From positions 1 to 39,262 of the forward strand of contig JAATGN010000079.1 of NCBI GenBank assembly GCA_015654615.1: a DNA stretch of 39,262 nucleotides. The letters are read 5' to 3'. The notes below the pieces were generated by a model that saw only the letters and a program-made list of their open reading frames with translations, was not told the origin of the DNA and ran no database searches. The stretch comes from Rhodospirillales bacterium. GTDB taxonomy: Bacteria; Pseudomonadota; Alphaproteobacteria; Rhodospirillales; Magnetospirillaceae. How positions within the stretch are numbered: position 1 is the stretch's first letter; each line of letters opens with the position of its first letter. Position numbers and translations under genes: made by a program. Shown here in pieces: positions 5,214-31,201 of this stretch.

Positions 5214-6092
5214 CTACTTCCGCGCCTTCAAAAGCTGATCGATGATTGCATAGTCGATTTCCAGCCGCTGTCCGGCGTTTCGATACTGAGCGCTGATCAA
5301 GGCCAGGGCACCGATGCCGAGCCGTTCCTCCCGCAGGTCCCGCCGGAGCAATCGGTCTCGGACCGTGTTTTTGTGAATTTCACGAATATCCACGCTGGCC
5401 CCGGTTGGCGCCGAATTGGCGTATTCGCCGACGGCCGTTCTCAAATGATAGAATGCCAGCGGCCGCGGTATCACACCGATATCGAATTTTTCGATAAACC
5501 TTAAATGAAATTCATAGTCTCCGCCCAACGGAAGATCTTCCGAAAAATATCCGATTTGCGATAAGACCTCTCTTCTGAAGAGAAAGGCATTGATCGTAAA
5601 CGGATGCCATCCCGCGACATCAAGCATGAACACTTCAGCAAGCTGCGGGTTCAGCGGTGCAAAATGCGATATATGGATATCGTTGCGGCCGATTTCCTCA
5701 TAAACACGAAAAGTCTGAACGGCCACACCGGCACACCACCGTTGCTTCTCGAGAAAGGCGACGGTCTGCTGCAGGAAGGTCTCGTCCCATGAATCATCAT
5801 CGTCGAGAAGCACGATAAAGGTCGAATTCGAAGACCGGATGCCGATATTGCTGGCGGCTTCCATACCCACGCTCTTCGGATTGTGGACGGCAATGACCGT
5901 CGTCCCCCGCTTGCGGGCGTCTTCGGCGATTTCGTCGACGGGACCGGGATCACCACCGTCGTTGACGATCACCCAAGCGAGATCCTGGCAGGTCTGATTG
6001 ATGATCGATTCGGCGGCGCGGCGCAGAGTCACGGCCCGATCCTTGGTCCGAGTGACGACCGCGACTTTGGCGAAGGCGGGATCGGACGCCAT
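5214..6092 (-). CDS. Family 2 glycosyltransferase (second of a tandem pair)
   Basis: A 292-residue GT-A glycosyltransferase. VAVVTRTKDR at the N-terminus, WVIVNDGG near 40-47, EAASNIGI and the nucleotide-sugar/metal motif LLDDDDSWDE (DDDD at 97-100) are typical of GT2. GGDYEFHLRFIEKFDIG covers the acceptor side. No membrane segment is visible, so it is cytoplasmic. Its ATG overlaps the stop of the upstream paralogue in a TGATG junction, so the two are coupled. The strong likeness to that neighbour, starting with the shared TRT start and DDDDSWDE, shows tandem duplication. Donor and acceptor are unknown. It is the last gene of the long leftward glycan group. Confidence 0.88.
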   Translation of the reverse strand: MASDPAFAKVAVVTRTKDRAVTLRRAAESIINQTCQDLAWVIVNDGGDPGPVDEIAEDARKRGTTVIAVHNPKSVGMEAASNIGIRSSNSTFIVLLDDDDSWDETFLQQTVAFLEKQRWCAGVAVQTFRVYEEIGRNDIHISHFAPLNPQLAEVFMLDVAGWHPFTINAFLFRREVLSQIGYFSEDLPLGGDYEFHLRFIEKFDIGVIPRPLAFYHLRTAVGEYANSAPTGASVDIREIHKNTVRDRLLRRDLREERLGIGALALISAQYRNAGQRLEIDYAIIDQLLKARK

Positions 6093-6973: not shown

Positions 6974-9234
6974 CGAACCTCGGCCGACCCGCCGACCTTC
7001 TCCTCGGCCAGCAGGGACAAGGCTTCGACCAGCTGCAACACCACGGTCGACCATTCGCCACGGAACACCCGCGCGGTCGGATACCAGGGGTGGGCCGCCT
7101 CTCGCCATCGATAATCGCGGTCTTGCGGGTGGAGCATGAGCCACACCGGCTTTCCCAAGGCCGCGGCCAAATGCGCCACATGATTGTTGGCGGAAACGAC
7201 CACATCCATCCGGGCGATTGCCGCGGCCATATTGGAAAAGTCGGGGATGACGGGAGACAGATCGACGACGCCGATCCTCGCGTCACGAAGGCGTTGGGCG
7301 TCCGGACCGACCTGCAGGCTATAGACGCGGCATCCCCGCACGTAGGAGAGCGGTGTGAGGTCCATCAGCGGACAACTGCGGTCGGTCTCCGACGGCGTAT
7401 CGAACATCGCCGGACTGGACTCGCCCTGCCACGCCAGGCCGATCTTGAGCGCGCGCTCGGCCGGGATGGGGAAATAGACACCCTTGGGCAAATGAAGATA
7501 GGGAATCTCGAGCTCGCTCAGCAAACCGCGCCCCGCCAATACGGCCGGAAGGCTGAGGATCGGCAACGCATAGTCGACGGCGGGCAAAGCCGAGTCCACG
7601 GCCACGCAGCCGGAAACGCCCGCGATGGTCGAAAGCAGCCCTTCCAGGCCGCGATGGCATTCGACGAAGACGTCGCGGGGCCCCAGCTTTGCCAAAACCG
7701 GCAGGAATCGGGCGAATTGAATCATTTCCGGCGGCCCGAATTCCGCCGTTATCAACAAGCGGGCCCCCTCCAGCGACTGGCCGTCCCATCGCTTTATGCC
7801 CTTGGCGGCCGGGCGGTCGTTCGGCAAGCGTTGCCGCCACTCAAGTTCGGCGAAACCCCGCGCCGACAGGCTGTCCGCCAGCAAGGCGTCGGCCAGCCGC
7901 AGCCGCAGTTGGACATTGTCGCGATCCATTTCGATGGCGCGCTCCAAATGCGGAACCGCCTGGGCCATCTGGCTCGACCGCTCATGCATCCCGGCCAGGT
8001 GGGTTCGGATCTGCGCCGAGCCGGGGTCCTGTGCCGCGGCCTTCTGCATCAGTTCGAGACCGCGCCGGAGATCGCCGTGATCTTCATACCAGGCGGCAAG
8101 ACCGGCGGTGAACCGAACATCGTCGGGATGCCTGGCCTGCAAATGTTCGAGAACGGATTGGGCCTCCGCCACCTGTCCAGCCTCCGACAGCGCCGAAAAA
8201 AGCGCCGTTCCCAGGTCTGGATCGTCAGGGTGCGTGTTTTCCGCCTCGCGCAGCATCGCCACGGCGTCGGCGTGCATGCCGACAGCCTGCAGCGCCTTCG
8301 CGAAGTCGAGGCGGACCGGCAGATGATTCGGGACCAGGCCCAGGGTTTTCCCGAAATGCTCCGCCGCCACGAAAGGCTGGCCAAGAGCCATGCTGGCCAG
8401 CCCCATCAGATGATGGAGCGTCGGATTGGCCGGAGCGCCGCCCAGCGCCGCGGCGCAGAGCTCGACGACCCTTGCATTGTCGCCCGCCGCGAAAGCGGCT
8501 TCGGCCGCCGTCTGAAGCGCCTGAGGGGAAAGCATCTCCACCGGCGGCGTCTGCCGGGACTTTCCACGGTTCTCCAAGGAGTCCGGATGAATCAAAGGCA
8601 AGGGCGCCGGAGTGGACCGCAGACCGCTCAATCGCGGATTGGAGAACCAGGCGTCCTGCTTGACGAAGAGCAGGACGTTCTGACGGTAGCGCCAGACGAT
8701 CCGGGAATCGGTCCACAGTTCCGACCGCAGAACGTCACTGCAAAAACAGCCGTTCTGGTGAAAAAGTTTCGCCCAATAGTCCGGCCAGAAACCGGAACGC
8801 TCTTCGGAGCTCTCATGCGGCGCCGGGGCGGCGAAGAGGATGACGTCTCCATGTTCGCTCAGGGCTTGGACCAGCGACGCATGATCGACTTCGGGCAGCT
8901 TCCCGGCCAGTTCCACGCAGGTCACCAGATCAAATCGGCGGGACAGCGAAAAGCCCCCGTGGGCGTCGCAGAAGCTGATCGTCCGCCGGAAGGCGGCGGC
9001 AGGCTCCGTGCCCGGCAGATCGACGCCCCACGGATCGGCGACGCCATGGCCGGCCGCCGCGCGAAGCCACGCCCCCTGGCCGCAACCGACATCGAGAAGA
9101 GACGCCGCCCCGGTCATCGCAAGCGTTTTGGCAAGAAGAATGGAGGCGGATCGCTCGATGTCGCCGGTCGGCACGTGCTCGGAAGAGGCCTGACCGGGAG
9201 CATGCCCACTGTGGAGCTCCGATTGATGCAGCAT
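6970..9234 (-). CDS. Methyltransferase-TPR-glycosyltransferase fusion protein
   Basis: A 754-residue, three-part protein. Residues 1-195 are a class I SAM methyltransferase (LLDVGCGQGAW near 47-56, then a WPDYWAKLF...WRYRQNVLLFV end). Residues about 235-470 form several tetratricopeptide repeats (for example around 273-304, 340-370 and 375-440). Residues about 480-745 resemble the GT-B glycosyltransferase domain of the TPR protein at 15386-16855. GGAGAGG precedes the ATG at 9234. Two expected glycosyltransferase signatures are altered: EQGxGD is EFGPPE, and SVDTxxAHL is SANNHVAHL. That part may therefore be inactive or act as a binding module. It leads the tandem GT2 genes, overlapping the first. 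Confidence 0.82.
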   Translation of the reverse strand: MLHQSELHSGHAPGQASSEHVPTGDIERSASILLAKTLAMTGAASLLDVGCGQGAWLRAAAGHGVADPWGVDLPGTEPAAAFRRTISFCDAHGGFSLSRRFDLVTCVELAGKLPEVDHASLVQALSEHGDVILFAAPAPHESSEERSGFWPDYWAKLFHQNGCFCSDVLRSELWTDSRIVWRYRQNVLLFVKQDAWFSNPRLSGLRSTPAPLPLIHPDSLENRGKSRQTPPVEMLSPQALQTAAEAAFAAGDNARVVELCAAALGGAPANPTLHHLMGLASMALGQPFVAAEHFGKTLGLVPNHLPVRLDFAKALQAVGMHADAVAMLREAENTHPDDPDLGTALFSALSEAGQVAEAQSVLEHLQARHPDDVRFTAGLAAWYEDHGDLRRGLELMQKAAAQDPGSAQIRTHLAGMHERSSQMAQAVPHLERAIEMDRDNVQLRLRLADALLADSLSARGFAELEWRQRLPNDRPAAKGIKRWDGQSLEGARLLITAEFGPPEMIQFARFLPVLAKLGPRDVFVECHRGLEGLLSTIAGVSGCVAVDSALPAVDYALPILSLPAVLAGRGLLSELEIPYLHLPKGVYFPIPAERALKIGLAWQGESSPAMFDTPSETDRSCPLMDLTPLSYVRGCRVYSLQVGPDAQRLRDARIGVVDLSPVIPDFSNMAAAIARMDVVVSANNHVAHLAAALGKPVWLMLHPQDRDYRWREAAHPWYPTARVFRGEWSTVVLQLVEALSLLAEEKVGGSAEVR

Positions 9235-17670: not shown

Positions 17671-18111
17671 TCAAGACCCTCGAATCGACAGTTTGGCAAG
17701 TTCGACTTCCGCCCTCAGCTCGATCTCGTCGAGCACGGCGGACAACCGCGGATCCGTCACATGTCCGCGGCGTGACCGCACCATCTGCGCCAGCGCGATC
17801 AGCTTATCCTTCGGTATTGCGCCGAAGAGCAGGCCATGGCGGATGTCTTCCAGCTTATCGAGCAGATCTTCGCCATATTTCACCAGGCGACGGCGTTCCT
17901 CGCCGTCCAGGGCGTCGCCGACCGCCTGCGCCGCCAGCAGGGCGTCGATGCCGCCGACCGCCGAAGAGGTCTCGACGGCATGGCTCTCCTCGACGGCCTC
18001 GAACGTCTCGGCCAACTTGTCGGCAAACCCGCCGGCCGACGTCTTGTCGGTCTTGGCCGTCTTTCTAGACTGCCCCGAACCAGCGGTTGCTCCGATGCCG
18101 GAAACTTTCAT
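17671..18111 (-). CDS. fliX: FliX, flagellar assembly checkpoint protein
   Basis: A 146-residue protein. It starts MKVSGIG and ends DPRLSAVLDEIELRAEVELAKLSIRG, which together with VGGIDALLAAQAVGDAL and LLDKLEDIRHGLLFGAIPKDKL matches alphaproteobacterial FliX. In Caulobacter FliX binds FlbD and couples early basal-body assembly to FlbD activity at sigma-54 promoters. The frame is open far upstream, but ATG 18111 restores the family's typical start. It is transcribed away from flgI, the arrangement known from Caulobacter, and flbD itself is at 29828 in this window. A weak minus-strand promoter may lie near 18140-18170. Confidence 0.9.
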   Translation of the reverse strand: MKVSGIGATAGSGQSRKTAKTDKTSAGGFADKLAETFEAVEESHAVETSSAVGGIDALLAAQAVGDALDGEERRRLVKYGEDLLDKLEDIRHGLLFGAIPKDKLIALAQMVRSRRGHVTDPRLSAVLDEIELRAEVELAKLSIRGS

Positions 18112-18287: not shown

Positions 18288-18323
18288 GGCAGAAATTGCC
18301 GCCATGGCTGGACAGAAGTTGCC
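18288..18323. promoter_or_regulatory. Two GGCA-N5-TGCC sites, probable FlbD-type enhancer
   Basis: GGCAGAAATTGCC (18288-18300) and GACAGAAGTTGCC (18311-18323) are near-identical, with centres 23 bases apart. They lie roughly 85-105 bases upstream of the start expected from the flgI sigma-54 promoter. That is where sigma-54 activators bind. Related sites precede fliK and fliF. Assignment to FlbD is by context. Confidence 0.55.
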
Positions 18324-18376
18324 GACGGCGGTCCCGCGGCCGCCGAGAGACCAGCGTTTCCGGCGCCTTCCATGGA

Positions 18377-18392
18377 TGGCACGCCATTCGCA
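18377..18392 (+). promoter_or_regulatory. Sigma-54 promoter of flgI
   Basis: TGGCACG-CCAT-TCGCA matches the consensus TGGCACG-N4-TTGCA with one change and has the required GG-N10-GC spacing (18378-18379, 18390-18391). The predicted start is near 18403, 56 bases before the flgI ATG. The rest of the 347-base fliX-flgI gap holds no gene. Confidence 0.65.
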
Positions 18393-18458
18393 TGGAGATC
18401 TGCGCTCGATTGCCGTTTCCAGGCCAACGAATCCTAAAGGCGCGCCGGAGAGATCGCT

Positions 18459-19622
18459 ATGAACAGGGTTTACGCCCGACCGTTTTCAGTCTTCAAGGGT
18501 TTGATCGCCATTCTCTCGGCGGCCGCCGTGCTGATCGCCGGCGTGCCGGCCTACGGCAGTTCGCGGATCAAGGATATCGCCGACTTCGAGGGCGTCCGCG
18601 ACAATATTCTGATCGGCTACGGCCTTGTCGTCGGATTGAACGGGACCGGCGACGGCCTCGACAACTCCGAATTCACCAAACAATCGATGATCGGCATGCT
18701 GGAACGCTTAGGCGTCAACGCCCGAAGCGCCAATCTGCAGGCCGGGTCGAATCCCGGCCTCAAGGCCAAGGACGTCGCCGCCGTCATCGTCACGGCGCGT
18801 CTGCCCGCCTTCGCCCGCCAGGGAACGAAAATCGACGTGACGGCCAGCGCCATCGGCGACGCCACCAGCCTGCTGGGCGGCACCCTGCTGGTCACGCCGC
18901 TGATCGGCGCCGACGGCGAAGTCTATGCCGTCGGCCAGGGGCAGGTCTCCTCGGGCTATTCGGCCGCCGGCGCCGCCGCATCGGTGACCAAGGGCGTTCC
19001 GACGTCCGGCCGGGTCGCCAACGGGGCGGTGGTCGAACGCGAGGTCGGCGCCGACATGAGCAATATGGAATCGGTGCAGATCTCCTTGCGCAATCCCGAC
19101 TTCACGACGGCGCGGCGCATCGCCCAGGCCGTCAACGCCTATCTGGGCACCGAGGTCGCCCGGCCGACCGATCCGGCCACCGTCCGCGTGGTCGTCCCGC
19201 CGCGCTATCTGGGCAATACCGTTTCGCTGTTGACCGACGTCGAACAGTTGCGGGTGCAACCCGACCAGATCGCCCGCGTGGTGGTGGACAATCGCACCGG
19301 GACCATCGTCATGGGCGAGAATGTCCGCATCAGCACGGTGGCCATCGCCCAGGGAAATCTGACCATTCGCATCACCGAGACCCCCCAGGTGTCGCAACCC
19401 TCGCCGTTTTCCGCGACCGGGCAGACCACCGTGGTCAACCGCACCGACGTCCAGGTCGACGAGGGGCCCGACAAGAAACTGGCGGTGTTGCAGGACGGCG
19501 TCACCCTGCAGCAATTGGTCGACGGCCTGAACTCCCTCGGCATCACGCCGACCGATCTCATCAGCATCCTGCAGGCGGTCAAGGCGGCGGGCGCCCTGCA
19601 AGCCGACATCGAGGTGATGTGA
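18459..19622 (+). CDS. flgI: FlgI, flagellar P-ring protein
   Basis: A 387-residue protein forming the periplasmic P-ring around the rod. An N-terminal signal peptide (FKGLIAILSAAAVLIAGVPAYGS, cleavage near residue 33) is followed by SRIKDIADFEGVRDNILIGYGLVVGLNGTGD, a hallmark of FlgI, and ends ISILQAVKAAGALQADIEVM as expected. Full-length. GGAGAG precedes the ATG. Its stop overlaps the start of the flgJ-type gene, so the two are coupled. It is the first gene behind the sigma-54 promoter at 18377. Confidence 0.97.
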   Translation: MNRVYARPFSVFKGLIAILSAAAVLIAGVPAYGSSRIKDIADFEGVRDNILIGYGLVVGLNGTGDGLDNSEFTKQSMIGMLERLGVNARSANLQAGSNPGLKAKDVAAVIVTARLPAFARQGTKIDVTASAIGDATSLLGGTLLVTPLIGADGEVYAVGQGQVSSGYSAAGAAASVTKGVPTSGRVANGAVVEREVGADMSNMESVQISLRNPDFTTARRIAQAVNAYLGTEVARPTDPATVRVVVPPRYLGNTVSLLTDVEQLRVQPDQIARVVVDNRTGTIVMGENVRISTVAIAQGNLTIRITETPQVSQPSPFSATGQTTVVNRTDVQVDEGPDKKLAVLQDGVTLQQLVDGLNSLGITPTDLISILQAVKAAGALQADIEVM

Positions 19623-19993
19623 TGATGACCGCGGATCCGACCCAGGGCATGGCCTCGCAGGCCCTCGCCTCTCGGGCCATGGCCTCGGAGGCCCTGGCCG
19701 CCCAGGAAATATCCGGGCAGACCGGGGGGGCGTCCGGCTCCGGCAAGCCGATCGACCTGGTGGCGGCCAAAAAGGCCGCCCAGAGCTTCGAAGCGGTGTT
19801 TCTGTCGCAGATGTTCGGCCACATGTTCGACGGCGTCGGCAAGGACAGCCTGTTCGGCGGCGGCCAGGGCGAAGAGATGTTTCGCCCGATGCTGCTCGAC
19901 GAATATGGAAAATTGGTCGCGAAAAAAGGCGGCGTCGGAATCGCCGACGCGGTGATGCGCACACTGATCAGCCAGCAGGAGAAGACAACATGA
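19622..19993 (+). CDS. flgJ: FlgJ-type rod-binding protein (no muramidase domain)
   Basis: A 123-residue protein that contains only the rod-binding domain: KKAAQSFEAVFLSQMFGHMFDGV near residues 50-72 and GGGQGEEMFRPMLLDEYGKLVAKKGGVGIADAVMRTLI. The muramidase half of enterobacterial FlgJ is absent, as is usual in alphaproteobacteria, where a separate hydrolase opens the wall. Its N-terminal 25 residues repeat MASQALASRAMASEALAAQ. The ATGATG at 19622-19627 overlaps the flgI stop; GAGGTG upstream serves either ATG. It scaffolds rod assembly in the periplasm. Confidence 0.9.
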   Translation: MMTADPTQGMASQALASRAMASEALAAQEISGQTGGASGSGKPIDLVAAKKAAQSFEAVFLSQMFGHMFDGVGKDSLFGGGQGEEMFRPMLLDEYGKLVAKKGGVGIADAVMRTLISQQEKTT

Positions 19994-20775
19994 GCCTCCC
20001 GCAACACAACAATCTTCCCAAACCGCCGCCGAAGGCGCCGCCGGGCGCCCGGCCGCTCGCCCCCGCGGCGCCGCCCGCCGTTGCCCGCGGGCCGCTCGCC
20101 GCACCGGTGGGCTCGCCGGTTGCCGCCCGCGGGCCGCTCGCCCCGCCGGCGGCGCCTGTCGGCGCCATGGCGGCGGGACGCCTGCCGCCGTCCTCCGGAC
20201 GACCGGCGGCTGCCGCCACGGCGACGATGGCGCCGCCGCCCTCCGCGGCCGCCCCGACGGCGGTGGCGCATCTGGTGGCCGCGGCCGGCGGACTGGGCAA
20301 GGCCGCGGCGACGCCGCGGACGATGCCCAAGGTCGACGTGCGGACTCTGCCGCCCAGCCTGGCCCCCATGGTCGAGGCGATCCACCTCTATGACGATCTG
20401 CTGATGGAGGAAAATGCCGCCCTGAAGGCGGGCGATTCGAAAAGCGTCGAGGCCTTGCTCGACCGCAAGATGGCCGCCACCCGCCTTTACCAGGACCGCC
20501 TCCGCACGCTGTTGGGCGATCCGCAATGCACGCGCAGCATGGCGCCGGAACAGCGCAGCGAGGTGGTCGCCATGGTCCGGTGCCTGGAAGAGCGGGCCAA
20601 GGAAAACACCATCCTGCTGAAAGCCAACATGGGCGCGATCGAACAATTGTTCGAAGTCATCAACACGGCGGCGCGCAAGATGCGACGTCAGGACGTCGCT
20701 TATTCGAAGGCCGGCATGATGTGCGACACCTACAATCGGAACGGCGTCTCGCTCGCTTACAACCACACGATTTGA
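19990..20775 (+). CDS. flgN: FlgN-like export chaperone with long Pro/Ala-rich N-terminus
   Basis: A 261-residue protein starting in an ATGA overlap with the flgJ-type stop. About 115 N-terminal residues are almost only Pro, Ala, Gly and Arg, with the near-repeat ARGPLAAPVGSPVAARGPLA. The rest, from APMVEAIHLYDDLLMEENAALKAGDSKSVEALLDRK on, is helical and matches the FlgN pattern (short acidic helix, then LYQDRLRTLL and long C-terminal helices ending NRNGVSLAYN). FlgN is the cytoplasmic chaperone of hook-associated proteins, and flgK lies 85 bases downstream. Usual FlgN is about 140-160 residues, so the extension is unusual. Confidence 0.72.
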   Translation: MSLPQHNNLPKPPPKAPPGARPLAPAAPPAVARGPLAAPVGSPVAARGPLAPPAAPVGAMAAGRLPPSSGRPAAAATATMAPPPSAAAPTAVAHLVAAAGGLGKAAATPRTMPKVDVRTLPPSLAPMVEAIHLYDDLLMEENAALKAGDSKSVEALLDRKMAATRLYQDRLRTLLGDPQCTRSMAPEQRSEVVAMVRCLEERAKENTILLKANMGAIEQLFEVINTAARKMRRQDVAYSKAGMMCDTYNRNGVSLAYNHTI

Positions 20776-20788
20776 TCGATGGGCGCGC

Positions 20789-20824
20789 CCCCTCCGGCCC
20801 CCTTGGACGGGGCCGCCGGAGGGG
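20789..20824. terminator. GC hairpin between the flgN-like gene and flgK
   Basis: CCCCTCCGGC (20789-20798) and GCCGGAGGGG (20815-20824) form a perfect 10-bp stem. No T-run follows, so it is a pause, attenuator or mRNA-stabilising stem as likely as a terminator. Confidence 0.4.
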
Positions 20825-20860
20825 ATTTGACGAGAGCCTCACGACACAGGACGCGACAGC

Positions 20861-23635
20861 ATGGCGGGCATGGCGGACACCAGCGCGGCAATCAGCAGCC
20901 TGAATTGGGCGCAGCAATCGGCGGTCAACGGCATTGCCGGCATCGCCGGCGCCGCGGCATCCGCCGCGACGCCCCGGACAAAAAAGACCAAAGACGAAAG
21001 ATCCGGCGAATCCTGGATTCTCGATGCCCTGTTTCCCCTCGCCACGATCCAGACCGGCATCGAAGAGGGCCTGAAAGCCAGCATCCGCGATGCCATCGGA
21101 ACGCTGAATACGCTGCTGGCCGACGACAAGCTCAGCGTGACCCTGCAAAAGCTGCTGGGGCAACCGGACGACCCGGCGACCATCGCCCGGTCGCTGCGCG
21201 ACCTGACCGACGCCTTCGCCAATCTCGCCGCCTCGCCCGGCCAGACGGCGCAGAGCGTGGTGCGGGCCGCCACCTCCTTCACCGACAAATTGAAGACGAC
21301 GACGACGCAGATCCAGGCGTTGCGCGGCCAGGCCGACAGCGACATCGGAAGCACCGTCGACAAAGCCAATGTGATTTTGAAACGGATCGCCGATCTCAAC
21401 GCCAAGATCGCCCTCGGCGCCGCGGCGGGTCAGCCGAACCGGGACAGCGGCGCCGAACGGGACGCCGCCCTCGATACCTTGTCCGGCACCTTCGATTTTG
21501 CCTCCTTCAACCGCGACGACGGCACCGTCGCCGTCTTCACCAAGACCGGCACCCCCTTGGTCACCGCCACGGCCGCCCAGCTTGTCCACAAGGTCACCGA
21601 AAAAATCGATCCTTCGATGACTTTGGCCAATGGCCGCCTGAGCGGCGTTTCGGCGAACGGCGTGGAGATCAGCGCCCAGCTCGCCGCCGGCACGCTTCAC
21701 GCCCTGCTGAAAACCCGCGATTCCACGCTGCCCAACGTGCAAAACCAGCTGGATACCCTGGCGCAAACGTTGCAGTCGCAAATCAATCAGGTGAGCAACC
21801 GCGCCCTGGCCACCAAGGGCCTGACCTCGGCGTGCCGCAGCAGCCGCCGCTTTTCCGACCCCGGCGGACAGAAGTTCACGCTTTCCGGTGGAGACGTCGT
21901 GGTCAGCCTGCTGGCCGGCGACGGCAAACCGACAGGCAGCATCGGCCTGTCCCTGTTGATGAAGCAATATTTGCAAGCCAACGGCTTGCCCTGCAACCGG
22001 GCATGGTCGGCCAGCCAGGCCGCGGCCGCCCTCAATCGCTGGCTGAACCAGAAGCTCGGCCCCCGGGCCGAATCCTATGCGGCGATCAATGACGACGGGC
22101 AGATCGCCTTTCAATTGCCGCAGGGGCTGGTCGCCGGCCTGACCTTTCAGGACCAGCGCAGCTTCGCCTATCATTCCTCGCCTTTCGCCAATCCCGACAA
22201 GCCGCTCGGCCTCAACGGCGCTGTCGGCTTCACCGACAGCGCCGGCAATGCCATTTCGACCAGTCGGGCCAATCCGCCGCAGTCCATCCTCCCCACCGAC
22301 AGCCTTGCCGCCGTCGCCGCCAAACTCAACGGCCTGGATGGGCTGGAGGCCACCGTCGTGCCCGGCGAGACCGGAGTCTTCCTGCAGGTCGCCAGCACGA
22401 CCGGCAGCGACATGAGCGTCGAGCCCGACGCCGCGGGAGCCAATGTGGTCGGCGGCCTCGGGTTGCGTCCGGCGGCGGATCAGGCCGCCGAGGACGTGGT
22501 GATCAACTTCCAACCGGAGCCGCAAGGGGTCAGCTTCAGCAGCGCTCCCCGGCCCGACGCCTTGACGCCGCTGGGTCTGGGCGGCCCATTGACCCTGCGC
22601 AACCAGGAAAACGAGCTGATCGCGCAGATCGCCGTCGAACCCGGCTGGTCCCTGGCAACGCTGGCGGCGCACATCAACGAGGCGGCAAAAAGCCGGAACG
22701 TGCATGCGACGGTCGTCGCGGCGGGCAATCAGGTCGTCCTGAAGATCGCGCCGCCATTGGGCCAGCAGCTGCGCATGGACGGCGCTCCGGAGTCCTTCCA
22801 TACGCCTCCCTCGAGCACCTTCGCGGCGGCGGGCGGAGCCTTGGCCATCGCGCTGGACGGCAGAGCGATCGGACGGCTGACCGTCAAGCCGGGCGACGAT
22901 CTCCAAGCCATATCCGACGCCATCAACGATCCGGCGGCGCCCTTCTCCACCCACGGCATCGCCGCCTCGCTGGGAAAAGTCGGCGAGGCCTCCTTCCTGG
23001 AAATCGCCAGCGCCTCCGGCCTGCCGCTCGGTTTCGACGGACCGGCCACGGGCCAGGCCGCCGGGGCCCTGGCCCTTCGTCTCAACGTCCGCGACAGCTT
23101 GGGCTTGTGCGCCCCGGCGACGCAGGCGATCTCCGGCTTCGCCAATTTCCTGGGTCTCAACGACTTTTTCGTCGCCGATCCCCCCGACGCCTTCGACAGC
23201 AAGGCGCCGACCGGCATCTTCACCAGCACGGCGATGCCCGGGACCGCGCGAACATTGGCGCTGAATCCGCAGATGCAGGACGATCCATCCAAGCTGGACG
23301 ACACGGCGCTGAGCGGCCGGATGACCGAAATGCTGCGCGGCCCGGTCAATCTGGCGGCGGCCGGCGGCCTGGCGCGCGGCAGCCAGAGCCTCACCCACTA
23401 CGCCGAGACGATCATTGCGACCGCCGGCGCCCAGGCCCGGGCGACACGGGGACAGCTGGTCTTTCAGGAAACCCTGCTCGAAGGACTGGCCTTGCAGCAT
23501 TCCCGAATCGGCGGCATGGACATGAACGATACGGTCTCCACCCTGACGATATACCAGCAGGCCTTCCACGACTCGTCGCGGATCGTCTCCACCATGGGTC
23601 AATTGTTCGGCAGCCTGGGGGCGCCGGTTCATTAG
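20861..23635 (+). CDS. flgK: FlgK, hook-associated protein 1, enlarged and divergent
   Basis: A 924-residue secreted hook-filament junction protein. Residues 150-185 (IQALRGQADSDIGSTVDKANVILKRIADLNAKI), the segment DGTVAVFTKTGTPLV, TLPNVQNQLDTLAQTLQSQINQVSN and the last 45 residues (GMDMNDTVSTLTIYQQAFHDSSRIVSTMGQLFGSL) are FlgK hallmarks. The usual N-terminus with NIANxNTxGYxR is missing; residues 1-60 are SSLNWAQQSAVNGIAGIAGAAAS and then a charged stretch. I found no lost reading frame upstream that would restore it. The middle 500 residues are extra surface domains. An alternative start is the ATG at 20870. flgL is not present after it. Confidence 0.8.
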   Translation: MAGMADTSAAISSLNWAQQSAVNGIAGIAGAAASAATPRTKKTKDERSGESWILDALFPLATIQTGIEEGLKASIRDAIGTLNTLLADDKLSVTLQKLLGQPDDPATIARSLRDLTDAFANLAASPGQTAQSVVRAATSFTDKLKTTTTQIQALRGQADSDIGSTVDKANVILKRIADLNAKIALGAAAGQPNRDSGAERDAALDTLSGTFDFASFNRDDGTVAVFTKTGTPLVTATAAQLVHKVTEKIDPSMTLANGRLSGVSANGVEISAQLAAGTLHALLKTRDSTLPNVQNQLDTLAQTLQSQINQVSNRALATKGLTSACRSSRRFSDPGGQKFTLSGGDVVVSLLAGDGKPTGSIGLSLLMKQYLQANGLPCNRAWSASQAAAALNRWLNQKLGPRAESYAAINDDGQIAFQLPQGLVAGLTFQDQRSFAYHSSPFANPDKPLGLNGAVGFTDSAGNAISTSRANPPQSILPTDSLAAVAAKLNGLDGLEATVVPGETGVFLQVASTTGSDMSVEPDAAGANVVGGLGLRPAADQAAEDVVINFQPEPQGVSFSSAPRPDALTPLGLGGPLTLRNQENELIAQIAVEPGWSLATLAAHINEAAKSRNVHATVVAAGNQVVLKIAPPLGQQLRMDGAPESFHTPPSSTFAAAGGALAIALDGRAIGRLTVKPGDDLQAISDAINDPAAPFSTHGIAASLGKVGEASFLEIASASGLPLGFDGPATGQAAGALALRLNVRDSLGLCAPATQAISGFANFLGLNDFFVADPPDAFDSKAPTGIFTSTAMPGTARTLALNPQMQDDPSKLDDTALSGRMTEMLRGPVNLAAAGGLARGSQSLTHYAETIIATAGAQARATRGQLVFQETLLEGLALQHSRIGGMDMNDTVSTLTIYQQAFHDSSRIVSTMGQLFGSLGAPVH

Positions 23636-23710
23636 CGGAGCACATCGGCATGACGCGGACGACAGCAATTCCGGCGGACGCCATGGCGCGGCTGGCAACA
23701 ATGACCGCCC

Positions 23711-23723
23711 GGCAAAATCTGCC
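23711..23723. promoter_or_regulatory. GGCA-N5-TGCC site upstream of fliK
   Basis: GGCAAAATCTGCC lies about 110 bases before the transcription start predicted from the fliK sigma-54 promoter. It is the reverse-complement form of the sites before flgI, and so a candidate FlbD enhancer site. Confidence 0.5.
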
Positions 23724-23735
23724 TTGCCCGGCGGC

Positions 23736-23782
23736 GGAACGGAAAACCGTTCCATGTCGCGAATACCGGGAAAAAGTCCCGG
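23736..23782. terminator. Two hairpins between flgK and fliK
   Basis: GGAACGG-AAAA-CCGTTCC (23736-23753) and CCGGGA-AAAAG-TCCCGG (23766-23782) are perfect stem-loops just upstream of the fliK promoter. They may end flgK transcription, although neither has a clear T-tract. Confidence 0.45.
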
Positions 23783-23801
23783 CTTCGAACGCCGGAACGA
23801 T

Positions 23802-23816
23802 TGGCCCGAAAATTGC
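23802..23816 (+). promoter_or_regulatory. Sigma-54 promoter of fliK
   Basis: TGGCCCG-AAAA-TTGC matches TGGCACG-N4-TTGC with one change and exact GG-N10-GC spacing. The predicted start is near 23828. That gives only 7 bases ahead of the GTG at 23835 but a 34-base leader with GAGGA before the ATG at 23862, supporting the latter as the start. Confidence 0.7.
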
Positions 23817-23861
23817 GTAAATGCCTGGTAGCCCGTGGATTCGCATGAGGACGCAGACATC

Positions 23862-25685
23862 ATGGCGGTAGAGGCCGTTGCAGCACAATCGACCCGAATC
23901 CCTTCTGTTTCCCTGTCGGCCGGTCAGTCCTTGAACGGCGGCGGCGGCGGGTTCGCGTCCCTGCTGTTGCAATCCGTTTCCGTCCCCGAGCAGAACCTGG
24001 GCCAGTTCGACGACGAGGCGGCCCCGTCGTCCGGCAGCGCCAAGACCGCGCCCCACGGCAGGGTGGCCCCGGCCCGCAACGGGACGGCGGCGGCCCGCGG
24101 CAGTTCCGCCCAAACGACGCCGGCCGACGGCATGGCGCAACCGGCCGTCGCGGCATCGGTCGCCCCCACGCCGCCGCCAAAGCCGGCGGCGGCGAAATCG
24201 GCGGCGGCGGACAAGACCTCGCGAAGCGAGACGGACCGGTCTTCCGCGGCGGCGGCATCGACCGACCGCGCGGCGTCGGACCGCGCCGCGACCGCGCGGT
24301 CGGCCGAAGCCAAGTCGACGCGCAAGACCGACAGCGAAAAAAGCGACGAGGAGACCGCCACCGACAAGACGGCGGCCACCGATTCAAGCGATCGTTCCGA
24401 TGCCGACCTGTCCGCGCAGGCGGCCCAGGCGAACGCCGCGATCCTGGCTCCGCCGCCACCGCCCCCGCCGCCGGCACCAGCGTCCGCCACGGCTTCGGAA
24501 CCGAGCCTGACGGGGATCGCCCCGGCGGCAGGCCCGGCAACGGATCCGGCGACGGCGCAACCGGCTGCCGGAACAGCCGGCGAAAGCCAGCCTTCGGCCC
24601 CGGATGCGCAAGCCGCCGAAGCCGCCGGCCAACCCCCGGGCCCCGCCCTGGCGGCGCAGGCCGGCGCGGCGAATGCCGGTACAGCGAATGCCGGTGCGCA
24701 GACCGCCTCGACGACGCCTTCGGCGGACAGTCCCGGCGCGACGCCGGGTCCGGACCAATCGGCGGCCGGCGAACTCGCCATGGCGCAAGCGGCGGCTCTC
24801 AGCCAATCGAGCGGCGGGGGGCGCGTCACGGTCAAAAGCGCCTCCACCGGCCCGGGGGCGGCCATCCCCCAGCAAAGCGCCAGCCAACTGGCGACGGCGG
24901 CGGCGGTCCAGGCCTCCGCCTCGCGAAACAGCCCGACGGAGCAGACCGCGGCGGCGGCGTCCGCGACCGGCACGGATGCCGCCGCCCCGGACGGCTCCGC
25001 CAATTTTGCGCCGTTCCTGGCGGCGGCCTCCGCCCCGCATGCGGGAGCGGCGGGGGCGACGGCCGGACCGGAAGAGACCCTTGCGGCGCCGACGGCCATC
25101 GGCGGCGCGGCAGCGGCGACGGCCGGCGAGGCGAAAACCGCGCCGATGCCCGACACCGTCGCCGGCATGCCGACCACCACCCTTCAGGGGCTGGCGCAGA
25201 CCCAGGAGAACGCCGCGGCGAGCGCGCCCCAGGCGGTTCGCCCGACGGTGCAGCCAAGTCCCATCGATCAGGTCAAGGTCCAACTGGGCAAGAGCCTGAA
25301 GGACGGGACCGATACGCTGAGCCTGCAGTTGCATCCGGCGGACCTCGGCCGGGTCGACGTCAAGCTGGAGATGCAAAACGGGCAGGTCAAGGCGACGGTA
25401 ACGGCCGATCGGCCGGAAACGCTGCAATTGCTGAAAAACGACGCCAGCGGGCTGCAGCAATCGCTGAACAGCGCCGGCCTCAACGCGGATGCCGGTTCCC
25501 TCAGCTTCGAGTTGCGCGGCGAACAGCAACAGCAGCAGCAACGCCAGGCCGCGCAGAACGGAGCGCGGAGCTTCGCCGGCAACGCTCCGGAGACGGACGA
25601 CGACACGGCCGGCGCCGCCCTGGCGGCCACCGCGGCGACTCAATGGACGGGCAACGGCAGGAGCGGCGTCGATATCAAGGTCTAA
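23862..25685 (+). CDS. fliK: FliK, flagellar hook-length control protein
   Basis: A 607-residue protein. The first 450 residues are low-complexity Ala/Pro/Ser/Thr sequence, as expected for the flexible ruler. The C-terminal domain (DQVKVQLGKSLKDGTDTLSLQLHPADLGRVDVKL, then KATVTADRPETLQLLKNDASGLQQSL) is the Flg_hook domain that switches export specificity. A Gln run (ELRGEQQQQQQRQ) follows. Start ATG 23862 was chosen from GAGGA upstream and the promoter position. FliK is exported during hook growth. GC content is very high throughout, so long open frames appear on the other strand; they are not genes. Confidence 0.92.
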   Translation: MAVEAVAAQSTRIPSVSLSAGQSLNGGGGGFASLLLQSVSVPEQNLGQFDDEAAPSSGSAKTAPHGRVAPARNGTAAARGSSAQTTPADGMAQPAVAASVAPTPPPKPAAAKSAAADKTSRSETDRSSAAAASTDRAASDRAATARSAEAKSTRKTDSEKSDEETATDKTAATDSSDRSDADLSAQAAQANAAILAPPPPPPPPAPASATASEPSLTGIAPAAGPATDPATAQPAAGTAGESQPSAPDAQAAEAAGQPPGPALAAQAGAANAGTANAGAQTASTTPSADSPGATPGPDQSAAGELAMAQAAALSQSSGGGRVTVKSASTGPGAAIPQQSASQLATAAAVQASASRNSPTEQTAAAASATGTDAAAPDGSANFAPFLAAASAPHAGAAGATAGPEETLAAPTAIGGAAAATAGEAKTAPMPDTVAGMPTTTLQGLAQTQENAAASAPQAVRPTVQPSPIDQVKVQLGKSLKDGTDTLSLQLHPADLGRVDVKLEMQNGQVKATVTADRPETLQLLKNDASGLQQSLNSAGLNADAGSLSFELRGEQQQQQQRQAAQNGARSFAGNAPETDDDTAGAALAATAATQWTGNGRSGVDIKV

Positions 25686-25720
25686 GGGCCGTTAAGCCCA
25701 CGGCTGTTCACTTTTGCCCG

Positions 25721-25744
25721 GTGGCGCGGGCATCCCCGCCCGCG
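25721..25744. repeat. Solitary arm of the GTGGCGCGGGC repeat
   Basis: These 24 bases match the left arm of the palindromic repeat at 16971-16994 with two differences. It stands alone in the 277-base fliK-fliF gap, which otherwise carries the fliF control region. Confidence 0.45.
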
Positions 25745-25854
25745 TCCGGCGGATAAGACGGGCGGCGGCGGCGGCCCCGCTGGCGACAAGGAACGGCAGG
25801 GTCTTTACGGCCATCGGGCCGTTTCCCCGGCGGGGCCTTCCCCAGGCACGACCC

Positions 25855-25867
25855 GGCAAGTTTTGCC
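25855..25867. promoter_or_regulatory. GGCA-N5-TGCC site in the fliF promoter region
   Basis: GGCAAGTTTTGCC lies 7 bases upstream of the CtrA-like box. In Caulobacter, FlbD represses fliF from a site close to its promoter while activating sigma-54 promoters; this placement fits the same use. The regulator is inferred. Confidence 0.5.
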
Positions 25868-25873
25868 TGGTCG

Positions 25874-25903
25874 TTAACCTGTGATTCACTTTCAAGGTAT
25901 AGC
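25874..25903 (+). promoter_or_regulatory. CtrA-like box and candidate promoter of fliF
   Basis: TTAA-CCTGTGA-TTCAC differs from TTAA-N7-TTAAC at one position. Taking TTAACC as -35, TATAGC (25898-25903) follows at 18 bases as a -10. The fliF start codon is 60 bases further. Expected if fliF is an early, CtrA-controlled class. Confidence 0.45.
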
Positions 25904-25962: not shown

Positions 25963-27624
25963 GTGAACGCATTCCTTCAGTCTCTTAAGAATCTCGGAAC
26001 GATGCGCCTGACCGCCATCGCCGGAGGGGGAGTCGCGGTCCTGGCCTTCATCATCTATGTGATGGCGCGCATGTCCTCGCCGCCCATGGAGATGCTCTAC
26101 GGCGGCCTCGATCTGCAAGACGCCAACATGATCGTCAACAAGCTGCAGACCGATAAGGTTCCCTACGAACTGCGCCACGAAGGCTCGGAAGTCTGGGTGC
26201 CGCGCGACCGCAAGCTCGATCTCCGGGTCAAGATGGCCGAACAGCAGTTGCCGAGCGGCGGTTCGGTGGCGACCGGCTATGAGATCTTCGACAAGGGAGA
26301 CATGCTGGGCTCGACCAGCTTCATGCAGAACATCAATCTGGTTCGCGCCATGGAAGGCGAGCTGGCCCGCACCATTCATGCGATCGACCGCGTGAAATCG
26401 GCCCGCGTCCACCTGGTCCTGCCGAAACGGGAAATGTTCAGCCGGGAGGTCCAGGATCCTTCGGCCTCGATCGTGCTGAAGATGGACGGCAACGCCCGAT
26501 TGTCGAAACAGCAGGTTCAAGCCATCCAGCATCTGGTGGCGGCCGCCGTGCCGAAGCTGAAGCCGTCCCGCATCTCCATCGTCGACGACAAGGGCACCCT
26601 GCTGGCCCGCGGCGCCGACGACGACCGGCAGGCCGCGGCGGAAAATGCCGATGAACTGAAACTGAACACGGAACAGAGGCTGCAGCGGACCATCGAGGAT
26701 TTGCTGGAGCGCTCGATCGGACCCGACCGGGTCCGCGCCGAGGTCTCGGTCGAGTTGGACCTCGACCGCGTCGCCACCACGCAGGAAACCTACGACCCGG
26801 ACAGCAAGGTGGTCCGTTCGCAAGTGACCGTCGAGGAAGGCGAACAGACCCAGGACGCCGAAAGCAACGCGGTCAGCGTGCAGCAGAACCTTCCCGACGC
26901 CGGCGCCAACAATGCCGGCGCGAAGAGCCAGAGCAAGCAGAACCGCACGCAGGAAACGACGAACTACGAGATTTCCAAGACCACCAAGAATCTGGTCAAG
27001 GAACTGGGGACCGTCAAACGGATCACCGCCGCCGTGCTGGTCGACGGCCGCTATGCGCCCCCGACCGCCGAAGGCCAGAAAAAGCTGGTCTACCAGCCCC
27101 GCAGCGAACAGGAGATGGACCAGCTCGCCGCCCTGGTCCGCAATGCCATCGGCTATGACGCCAATCGGGGCGATCAGGTCGAGGTCACCAACATGCCCTT
27201 CGCCGGCCACGACGAGCCGGAACCCGACGGCACGGAAAACAAGCTGTTCGGCTTCGATCGCGATTTCGTCGAAAAAGTCGCCTCCAACCTCGGCCTCTCG
27301 GTCGTGGCCATTCTTTTCCTGCTGCTGGTCCTGCGCCCCCTGGTCAGCCGGGCGGTGGAATCGATGGCCGCCCAGGGCATGAGCGACCGGCGCATGCTGA
27401 CCGAGGGAGCGGGGCCGCCTTTGCTGGGGCCCGGCGCCATGCCGCCGGCCCCGGCCGCCGGCATGCTGGCCGACGAGATGGAAACCGTCGACGAACTGAT
27501 CGACATCGACAAGGTCGAGGGCCGGGTGAAGGCGTCCTCGATCCGCAAAATCGGCGAAATTGTCGAAAAACACCCCGAAGAAGCCTTGGGGATCATCCGA
27601 GGCTGGATGTATTCGGATACCTGA
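25963..27624 (+). CDS. fliF: FliF, flagellar MS-ring protein
   Basis: A 553-residue membrane protein forming the MS-ring. Membrane segments lie near residues 18-38 (AIAGGGVAVLAFIIYVMA) and about 440-460 (LSVVAILFLLLVLRPLV). The periplasmic part includes YGGLDLQDANMIVNKL and KSARVHLVLPKREMF, typical of the YscJ/FliF ring-building domain. The C-terminal cytoplasmic tail KASSIRKIGEIVEKHPEEALGIIRGWMY binds FliG. The GTG at 25963 is chosen because GGGGAAG precedes it and the product then begins MNAFLQSLKNLG, as FliF proteins do; a TTG at 25948 is the alternative. First gene of the large operon. Confidence 0.95.
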   Translation: MNAFLQSLKNLGTMRLTAIAGGGVAVLAFIIYVMARMSSPPMEMLYGGLDLQDANMIVNKLQTDKVPYELRHEGSEVWVPRDRKLDLRVKMAEQQLPSGGSVATGYEIFDKGDMLGSTSFMQNINLVRAMEGELARTIHAIDRVKSARVHLVLPKREMFSREVQDPSASIVLKMDGNARLSKQQVQAIQHLVAAAVPKLKPSRISIVDDKGTLLARGADDDRQAAAENADELKLNTEQRLQRTIEDLLERSIGPDRVRAEVSVELDLDRVATTQETYDPDSKVVRSQVTVEEGEQTQDAESNAVSVQQNLPDAGANNAGAKSQSKQNRTQETTNYEISKTTKNLVKELGTVKRITAAVLVDGRYAPPTAEGQKKLVYQPRSEQEMDQLAALVRNAIGYDANRGDQVEVTNMPFAGHDEPEPDGTENKLFGFDRDFVEKVASNLGLSVVAILFLLLVLRPLVSRAVESMAAQGMSDRRMLTEGAGPPLLGPGAMPPAPAAGMLADEMETVDELIDIDKVEGRVKASSIRKIGEIVEKHPEEALGIIRGWMYSDT

Positions 27625-29827: not shown

Positions 29828-31201
29828 ATGCAACTTCTGATCATCGGCAGCCTGGACGGGCAGGTCGGCGCCGCAAGCCAGATGGCGATGGCACGGGGGG
29901 CCAAGGTGACCCATGTCGATACCGTCACCGGCGGTCTCGAAGTGTTGCGGTCCGGTCCCGGCGCCGATCTGGTGATGGTCGACGTCAAATTCGACGTCAA
30001 GGCCCTGGTCGACAGCCTGGCCAGCGAGCGGATCAATGTGCCGGTGATCGCCTGCGGCATCGGCACCGACGCCAGCGCGGCCGTCCGCGCCATTCGGGCC
30101 GGCGCCAAGGAATACATCCCGCTTCCCCCCGATGCCGATCTGATCGCCGCGGTCATCGCCGCCGTCACCGAGGAAAGCCATACCATCGTCTATCGCGATC
30201 CGGTGATGGGACAATTGGTTCGCATGGCCGAACAGGTGGCGCCCAGCGATGCGTCGATTCTGGTGACCGGCGAATCGGGAACCGGCAAGGAGCTGATCGC
30301 CCGTCTGGTCCATCGGAAAAGCCGGCGCGCCGCCAAACGCTTCATCGCCATCAATTGCGCGGCGATTCCGGAAAACCTTCTCGAAAGCGAATTGTTCGGC
30401 CATGAGAAAGGCGCCTTCACCGGCGCCGTCGCCCGGCGTCTCGGACGATTCGAAGAGGCCAACGGCGGCACCCTGCTGCTCGACGAAATCAGCGAGATGG
30501 ACATCCGGCTGCAGGCCAAATTGCTGCGCGCCCTGCAGGAAAAGGAGATCGACCGGATCGGCGGCAATGTTCCGGTCAAGGTCGACGTCCGCATCATCGC
30601 CACCTCGAACCGCAGCATGGAAGAGGAGGTGCGCCGCGGCACCTTCCGCGAGGATCTGTACTTCCGCCTCAATGTGGTCAATCTGCGGCTGCCGTCCCTG
30701 CGCGAACGGCCGCTCGACATCGATATGCTGTCCACGCACTTTCTCAAGAAATATGCCGAGGTGAACGGCCTTGCGCAGCGCCCCCTGTCGGACGCGGCGA
30801 AACGCATGCTGCTGACCCATGGCTGGCGGGGCAATGTGCGGGAACTGGAAAACACCATGCACCGCGCCGTGCTTCTGGCCGTCGGCAACGAAATCGGCCC
30901 GGAAGCCATCCTGCTGTCGGGGGGACCGACGGTGGTCGATCCGGCGGCGAGCGTGGTCGCCACCGCCGCCGCCGCCGCCTCGGCGGCAACCGGCGCCACC
31001 AAGCAACTGGTCGGCCGGACGGTCTCGGACGTCGAGCGGGATCTGATCATCGACACGCTGCACCATTGCCTGGGCAATCGAACGCATGCCGCCAACATCC
31101 TGGGCATTTCCATCCGTACCCTGCGCAACAAGCTGCATCAATATTCCGACGAAGGCATCCCGGTACCGCCGCCCGGCGAAGCAGAACATCCTGCCGTATA
31201 G
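29828..31201 (+). CDS. flbD: FlbD-type sigma-54-dependent activator
   Basis: A 457-residue regulator. Residues 1-115 look like a receiver domain but lack the N-terminal acidic pair (LLIIGSLDG), so classical phosphorylation is doubtful. The AAA+ domain is complete: Walker A GESGTGKE (148-155), the sigma-54 contact loop GAFTGA (195-200), Walker B LLLDE (216-220). A Fis-type helix-turn-helix ends it (NRTHAANILGISIRTLRNKLHQY). In Caulobacter FlbD activates late flagellar promoters and represses fliF, under control of FliX; fliX is at 17671. It begins 20 bases after fliN. It is the likely reader of the GGCA-N5-TGCC sites in this window. Confidence 0.93.
   Translation: MQLLIIGSLDGQVGAASQMAMARGAKVTHVDTVTGGLEVLRSGPGADLVMVDVKFDVKALVDSLASERINVPVIACGIGTDASAAVRAIRAGAKEYIPLPPDADLIAAVIAAVTEESHTIVYRDPVMGQLVRMAEQVAPSDASILVTGESGTGKELIARLVHRKSRRAAKRFIAINCAAIPENLLESELFGHEKGAFTGAVARRLGRFEEANGGTLLLDEISEMDIRLQAKLLRALQEKEIDRIGGNVPVKVDVRIIATSNRSMEEEVRRGTFREDLYFRLNVVNLRLPSLRERPLDIDMLSTHFLKKYAEVNGLAQRPLSDAAKRMLLTHGWRGNVRELENTMHRAVLLAVGNEIGPEAILLSGGPTVVDPAASVVATAAAAASAATGATKQLVGRTVSDVERDLIIDTLHHCLGNRTHAANILGISIRTLRNKLHQYSDEGIPVPPPGEAEHPAV

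Follow-up and report, generated by a model that had tools for sequence, protein, structure and literature searches.

Enhancer-binding proteins of the NtrC type act from palindromic dimer sites, often paired, about 100 bases upstream of -24/-12 promoters. Among the systems described, the closest to the one considered here are those of the flagellar regulator FlbD. Its site in Caulobacter crescentus is printed as CCCGGCA-N5-TGCCGGG in a 2011 paper citing Wu, Benson and Newton 1995, and that of DVU1063 from Desulfovibrio vulgaris as GGCA-N4-TGCC (PMC3333781, in excerpt). The ftr sites of FlbD are described in excerpts of PMC3930126 and PMC3096577, as are its roles as repressor of fliF and activator of later genes, and FlbD sites in Caulobacter promoters were identified by Fumeaux et al., as mentioned in an excerpt of PMC12421884. 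Here, we describe four palindromic sites in a contig of 39,262 nucleotides (JAATGN010000079.1; hereafter the window) from a Rhodospirillales bacterium, which lie before the flagellar genes flgI, fliK, and fliF and are very probably ftr-type operators of FlbD. On sequence grounds, we assign this reading a probability of about 0.85. The source genome is Telmatospirillum-like, with FliF of the window 93% identical to that of T. siberiense; the assembly comprises 5.70 Mb in 466 contigs, with an estimated contamination of 7.26%.

The sites resemble the ftr sites of Caulobacter in their core letters, spacing, regulator family, and the presence of FliX alongside, as well as in their target classes, namely sigma-54 middle and late genes together with fliF. 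They differ from the Caulobacter arrangement, in which ftr4 reportedly overlaps the fliF promoter, in that the fliF operator of the window lies upstream of a CtrA-like box. A preliminary description of this DNA had likened its fliF layout to that of Caulobacter; the close fliF site fits the Caulobacter theme, but plain promoter cover does not simply follow from it. NtrC-type enhancer sites are alike in palindrome, pairing, and distance, and unlike in their half-site. The D. vulgaris system likewise has an FlbD homologue and a near-identical palindrome before flagellar genes, but its printed spacing is four instead of five, and the excerpt of its source does not mention a CtrA partner. The motif is already known from Caulobacter, so that the earlier claim of an unreported motif holds at most for this organism, which is new. 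We found no Rhodospirillales FlbD site described in the open-licence literature, nor the two fliF layouts presented below.

Three of the four sites match GGCA-N5-TGCC exactly, and the one at 18311 carries one mismatch. All four fall in non-coding gaps, given a fliX start at 18111, where both the Pfam FliX profile match and the tblastn alignments to relatives begin; a longer fliX frame from a crude gene caller, running over the first two sites, was rejected on the same grounds. The first three sites are centered about 85−115 bases upstream of predicted sigma-54 start sites, with the GG of the sigma-54-like element set at -24. Both flbD and fliX are located in the window, FlbD matching NCBIfam NF050807 with 803 bits against a cut-off of 750, while Pfam reports no receiver domain in it at E 0.001. 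The positions of the sites, their place in non-coding gaps, their distances to the predicted start sites, and the presence of both genes agree with the preliminary description.

The association with FlbD was assessed in a class sample of 142 genomes from 140 genera, our own genome included. FliF was found in 82 of these and FlbD (E <=1e-140) in 73. Stretches upstream of fliF were examined in 78 of the 82, 70 with FlbD and 8 without (G319, G347, G363, and G372 were left out); two short ones, from G307 and G436 (82 and 124 bases), were kept in the motif counts and dropped from the helix comparison. Among the 256 palindromic half-sites at a spacing of N5, GGCA is the lone outlier upstream of fliF, occurring in 33 of the 70 FlbD-positive genomes (own genome included), compared with 8 for the next best half-site and a mean of 0.62 for the others. 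At spacings other than N5, GGCA/TGCC was present in 0−2 genomes. None of the eight FlbD-negative genomes carries the exact site (p 0.018). The contrast sharpens to 49/70 versus 0/8 (p 1.8e-4) if one mismatch is tolerated and an A/T-rich core required, with shuffles giving a mean of 1.2 and a maximum of 4, whereas allowing two mismatches weakens it to 57/70 versus 3/8, with a shuffle mean of 14.6.

The DNA-binding region of FlbD varies along with the site. Where the helix stretch differs from GNRTHAANILGISIRTLRNKL by at most one change, 44 of 56 genomes have a fliF site (counted with no more than one mismatch and an A/T-rich core), compared with 4 of 12 where the stretch differs by at least two (p 0.004), or 4 of 11 without G343, whose gene is cut by a contig end. 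The FlbD reading frames were picked by helix or by ATPase motifs. As far as the sequences tell, altered predicted DNA-binding helices of FlbD accompany the absence of the putative fliF operator.

Paralogous copies of fliF provide a further contrast. For this comparison, 17 of the 30 listed hits (of 50 records) were examined. Azospirillum plasmids carry two kinds of fliF, which are 48−50% and about 40% identical to that of the window, and six Azospirillum strains are present in both sets. All seven copies of the first kind are preceded by an exact operator; the CtrA-like box follows 18−19 bases on in three of them and, measured from the outer of two operators, 39−40 bases on in the other four. 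The latter promoters (L316, L317, L319, L320) hold two operators about 21 bases apart, GGCATATTTTGCC and then GGCAAAAACTGCC, before the CtrA-like box. The second kind has an exact site in 0/6 copies and a CtrA-like box in none. According to an excerpt of the R. centenum genome paper, which cites the result as unpublished, flbD mutations disrupt the polar flagella and spare the lateral ones (PMC2890560). Elsewhere in this comparison, an exact site occurs 63 bases from the FliF match in Methylobacterium and 83 bases from it in Sphingobium, in neither case with a CtrA-like box by the same rule, and Marinovum (7/8 letters, GC-rich core) and Indioceanicola have no such site. Together, the lone GGCA outlier at fliF, its absence from FlbD-negative genomes, the Azospirillum contrast, and the helix link support the assignment to FlbD, in line with the probable FlbD regulon motif proposed earlier and with the published core.

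Close relatives retain the sites. Nine loci were found via FliF, eight of which (L016−L023) reach upstream of fliF; the ninth, L024, begins at FliF and enters no count. This record is labelled Planctomycetota and encodes a FliF 49% identical to that of the window, possibly representing a mislabelled bin. The fliF operator is exact in all eight relatives, with six different inner 5-mers among them. In the five relatives that have the flgI gap, the first flgI operator is exact in four (L016, L018, L022, L023) and has one mismatch in L019; a looser second site follows 20−23 bases past the first in L016, L019, L022, and L023, and by eye only in L018. The fliK operator, in six relatives with the gap, is exact in L022 and has one mismatch in L016, L017, L018, L019, and L023. 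These conservation tests do not share the post hoc weakness of the density estimate given below. Conservation in these sequences argues against chance for the fliF and first flgI sites, and makes the weakest case for the second flgI site.

At flgI and fliK, the promoters of the window and its relatives contain a GG-N10-GC sigma-54-like element with 0−3 mismatches to the consensus, such elements being consensus matches and not mapped promoters. The start of the first flgI operator precedes this element by 77−89 bases in the window and four relatives and by 136 bases in L023, and the corresponding distance at fliK is 65−91 bases in the window and all six relatives. From these features we infer that FlbD dimers would bind the four sites through the Fis-type helix-turn-helix (HTH). 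At flgI and fliK, FlbD would contact sigma-54 polymerase at the -24/-12 element from about 85−115 bases upstream, and the promoters would open after FliX has signalled completion of the basal structure. On the fliX side of the flgI gap (18112−18200, divergent from flgI), a TTTACC..CTTTTAAC-like stretch resembling a CtrA box is common to L018, L019, and L023, with a weaker copy in the window, and a GTGTACACT block is shared among most relatives.

The promoter of our own flagellin gene on contig C76 was not used to define the motif; there, GGCAAGAATTGCA at -114 (7/8 letters) and a weak second site at -91 (6/8), 23 bases apart, precede the sigma-54-like element TGGCACGGGCCTTGCG. Among 27 flagellin loci of four relatives, the same -114/-91 pair recurs in L114, L118, and L120, and a site at -113 in L113; four further loci hold other candidates, and the rest have none by that rule. 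On the contig with flgD and the hook gene, GGAAAATTCTTCC (L046:1571) is a possible candidate downstream of a sigma-54-like element.

The fliF promoter has a different architecture. CtrA boxes follow a consensus of the TTAA-N7-TTAA type, from which TTAACCTGTGATTCA departs in its second half, reading TTCA instead of TTAA. One form related to this consensus is given in an excerpt of PMC4287350. In the relatives, the TTAA-N7-TTCA box starts 19 bases past the operator start (20 in L022), and the TATAGC downstream is identical in seven of the eight, with TTTAGC in L022. Across the order, GGCA-N5-TGCC-N2..10-GTTAAC occurs in 163 of 297 genomes, compared with about 83 (hand count) for a reversed control. 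Of the 30 composite loci returned, 25 encode FliF adjoining the site, with its start 101−151 bases from the operator in 24 of them; L075 matches only a C-terminal FliF stretch. The full TTAA-N7-TTHA box is present in 25/25 and starts at 18 bases (14 loci) or 19 bases (11 loci), within a search pattern that itself restricted box starts to 16−24 bases. Association of the composite with FliX and FlbD within the order was rejected as a test, as absence of FliX may reflect lack of flagella or an incomplete genome. In one family of the order, a second composite, GGCATTATCTGCC beside GTTAAC, is present in L084 and L091 (at 972 and 1501 in oriented coordinates); it precedes a flgB-like gene named by eye from its translation, and its CtrA-like half-box lies on the opposite side of the operator.

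Without preselection for a box, the 70 FlbD-positive genomes show two layouts. In 25, the box begins 14−21 bases after the operator start, 22 of these at 18 or 19, whereas in eight it lies 21−28 bases before the operator, six of these at 25; a further 17 have an operator without such a box. Telmatospirillum belongs to the upstream layout, with the operator before the box. A quick FlbD tree of 69 proteins (three of 72, G387, G339, and G404, were dropped because the frame rule gave none for them), which has few firm branches, requires at least four changes between layouts, two of them forced by firm branches, compared with a mean of 7.3 for shuffled data. We tentatively propose, at somewhat less than even odds, that a switch of fixed geometry made up of FlbD and CtrA controls fliF in either of two mutually exclusive layouts, one feedback having been kept while its mechanism was rewired. 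In the upstream layout (25/50 genomes with an operator), FlbD would sit 15−20, mostly 18−19, bases before the CtrA-like box and act on CtrA itself, and in the other (8/50), an operator placed some 25 bases past the box would block the promoter. Since the operator precedes the box in many genomes and follows it by about 25 bases in others, repression cannot be assumed to work by covering the promoter.

In the window, FlbD would bind directly upstream of the CtrA-like box, 6 bases away, and would damp the early, CtrA-driven promoter, the simplest means being to obstruct CtrA or its polymerase contact; its mechanism here may be to hinder CtrA or to cooperate with it. FlbD could also bind the sites everywhere and act with CtrA at fliF as an activator or timing element instead of a repressor. 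The rigid operator position, shared by all 25 composite fliF loci and 22 of the 25 upstream-layout genomes, would suit such a role, and a place upstream of a CtrA-like box is more usual for activators than for occluding repressors. We nevertheless consider this unlikely, because the second layout, with the operator past the box, suits repression, and because Caulobacter fliF expression rises without FliX, which its authors read as lost FlbD repression (PMC3096577 and PMC3930126, in excerpt).

Several results weigh against the sites being FlbD operators that repress fliF and activate the later promoters. Simple promoter occlusion would call for another position than the upstream one seen at fliF, and 20 of the 70 FlbD-positive genomes have no operator by the layout rule. 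Within the class sample, 26 places in 23 of 142 genomes hold the composite with GTTAAC, compared with 26 control places, counted by hand, in 21; the composite is distinct by position only, with 10 of the 26 places at fliF, all ten in FlbD-positive genomes. The class-sample statistics ignore relatedness and include only eight FlbD-negative genomes. Two of the six second-kind Azospirillum copies contain a one-mismatch string (one 400 bases up), without a CtrA-like box. For two of the three own flagellin genes above the Pfam cut-off, L051 and L052, the stretches inspected (309 and 156 bases) hold no site and no good sigma-54 element. The exact motif is not enriched genome-wide (148 places against 187 for the reversed control), nor is the refined pattern (21 versus 42), and the window holds 35 matches at up to one mismatch, where 30.48 are expected.

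Another flagellar regulator that merely co-occurs with FlbD could occupy the palindromes, as motif presence overlaps with flagella and FlbD binding is here predicted. This is very unlikely given that genomes with FliF and without FlbD lack the motif, that changes in the FlbD HTH accompany its absence, that the core equals the FlbD site printed in the excerpted PMC3333781, and that the second fliF copy of the same Azospirillum strains has no exact site.

Genome-wide enrichment failed as proof of the motif, whereas by density the flagellar gaps exceed chance. Four exact copies lie in the window, compared with about 1.0 expected from the genome density; one of them, at 7823, is inside a gene for a tetratricopeptide repeat (TPR) protein. 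The three flagellar gaps (~850 bases) hold three exact copies against 0.022 expected (computed on 851 bases; 850 after a one-base correction of the fliK start), a Poisson p of about 2e-6 that is post hoc, the motif having been read from these same sites. By this measure, the motif is not as frequent in genes as before flagellar promoters, although the 148 exact and 21 refined places were not all sorted into genic and intergenic. Chance matches in GC-rich DNA, consistent with the missing excess genome-wide and, with one mismatch, in the window, are barely credible beside a fliF site that is exact in 8/8 relatives around a variable core, an occurrence at one position in 33 of 70 genomes, and the density in the three gaps.

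A position weight matrix was used for listing candidates only. Several inspected refined matches outside the window sit by TRAP transporter, MeaB, LysR, and trypsin-like genes and were left out of the regulon. Two sites may be due to chance, namely GGCAAATTCTGCC at L054:5542 on contig C100, flanked by a mucR-type regulator gene and a trypsin-like gene, and GGCAAGACCTGCC at L063:2518, in the gap from which a chemoreceptor gene and a LysR gene diverge.

Table 1 Predicted regulatory elements and flagellar genes of the window.
Feature	Position	Strand	Remarks
fliX	17671..18111	-	Pfam PF10768, E 7.9e-40
FlbD operator 1 of flgI (predicted), GGCAGAAATTGCC	18288..18300		Center about -109 of predicted sigma-54 start
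FlbD operator 2 of flgI (predicted), GACAGAAGTTGCC	18311..18323		One mismatch; 23 bases past operator 1; center about -86
Sigma-54-like -24/-12 element of flgI, TGGCACGCCATTCGCA	18377..18392	+	Counterpart in 5/5 relatives with gap
flgI	18459..19622	+	
flgK	20861..23635	+	NCBIfam TIGR02492, 152 bits, below cut-off 171
FlbD operator of fliK (predicted), GGCAAAATCTGCC	23711..23723		Exact; center about -111
Sigma-54-like element of fliK, TGGCCCGAAAATTGCG	23802..23817	+	Counterpart in 6/6 relatives with gap
fliK	23862..25685	+	Pfam PF02120, E 4.3e-18
FlbD operator at fliF (predicted), GGCAAGTTTTGCC	25855..25867		Exact; within longer imperfect palindrome CGACCCGGCAAGTTTTGCCTGGTCG
CtrA-like box, TTAACCTGTGATTCA (TTAA-N7-TTCA)	25874..25888	+	Starts 19 bases after operator start, 6 bases between
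TATAGC, possible -10 element of fliF (putative)	25898..25903	+	
fliF	25963..27624	+	Putative GTG start
flbD	29828..31201	+	AAA+ sigma-54 activator, GAFTGA, Fis-type HTH

Beyond the listed features, fliG and a fliN-type gene were also identified in the window. Adjoining the flagellar genes, positions 5214−16855 encode TPR proteins with glycosyltransferase- and heptosyltransferase-like matches, which are possibly flagellin glycosylation genes.

As a whole, these results outline a predicted, evolutionarily supported FlbD regulon; our open-licence literature search returned no FlbD site described for this order. The operator separates the two fliF copies of Azospirillum, and combined with the CtrA-like box it offers a simple marker for the flagellar feedback switch. 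How FlbD would act from upstream of a CtrA box is the question raised by this arrangement, and the fixed coupling of operator and CtrA-like box, which recurs in many related bacteria, is the part worth pursuing.

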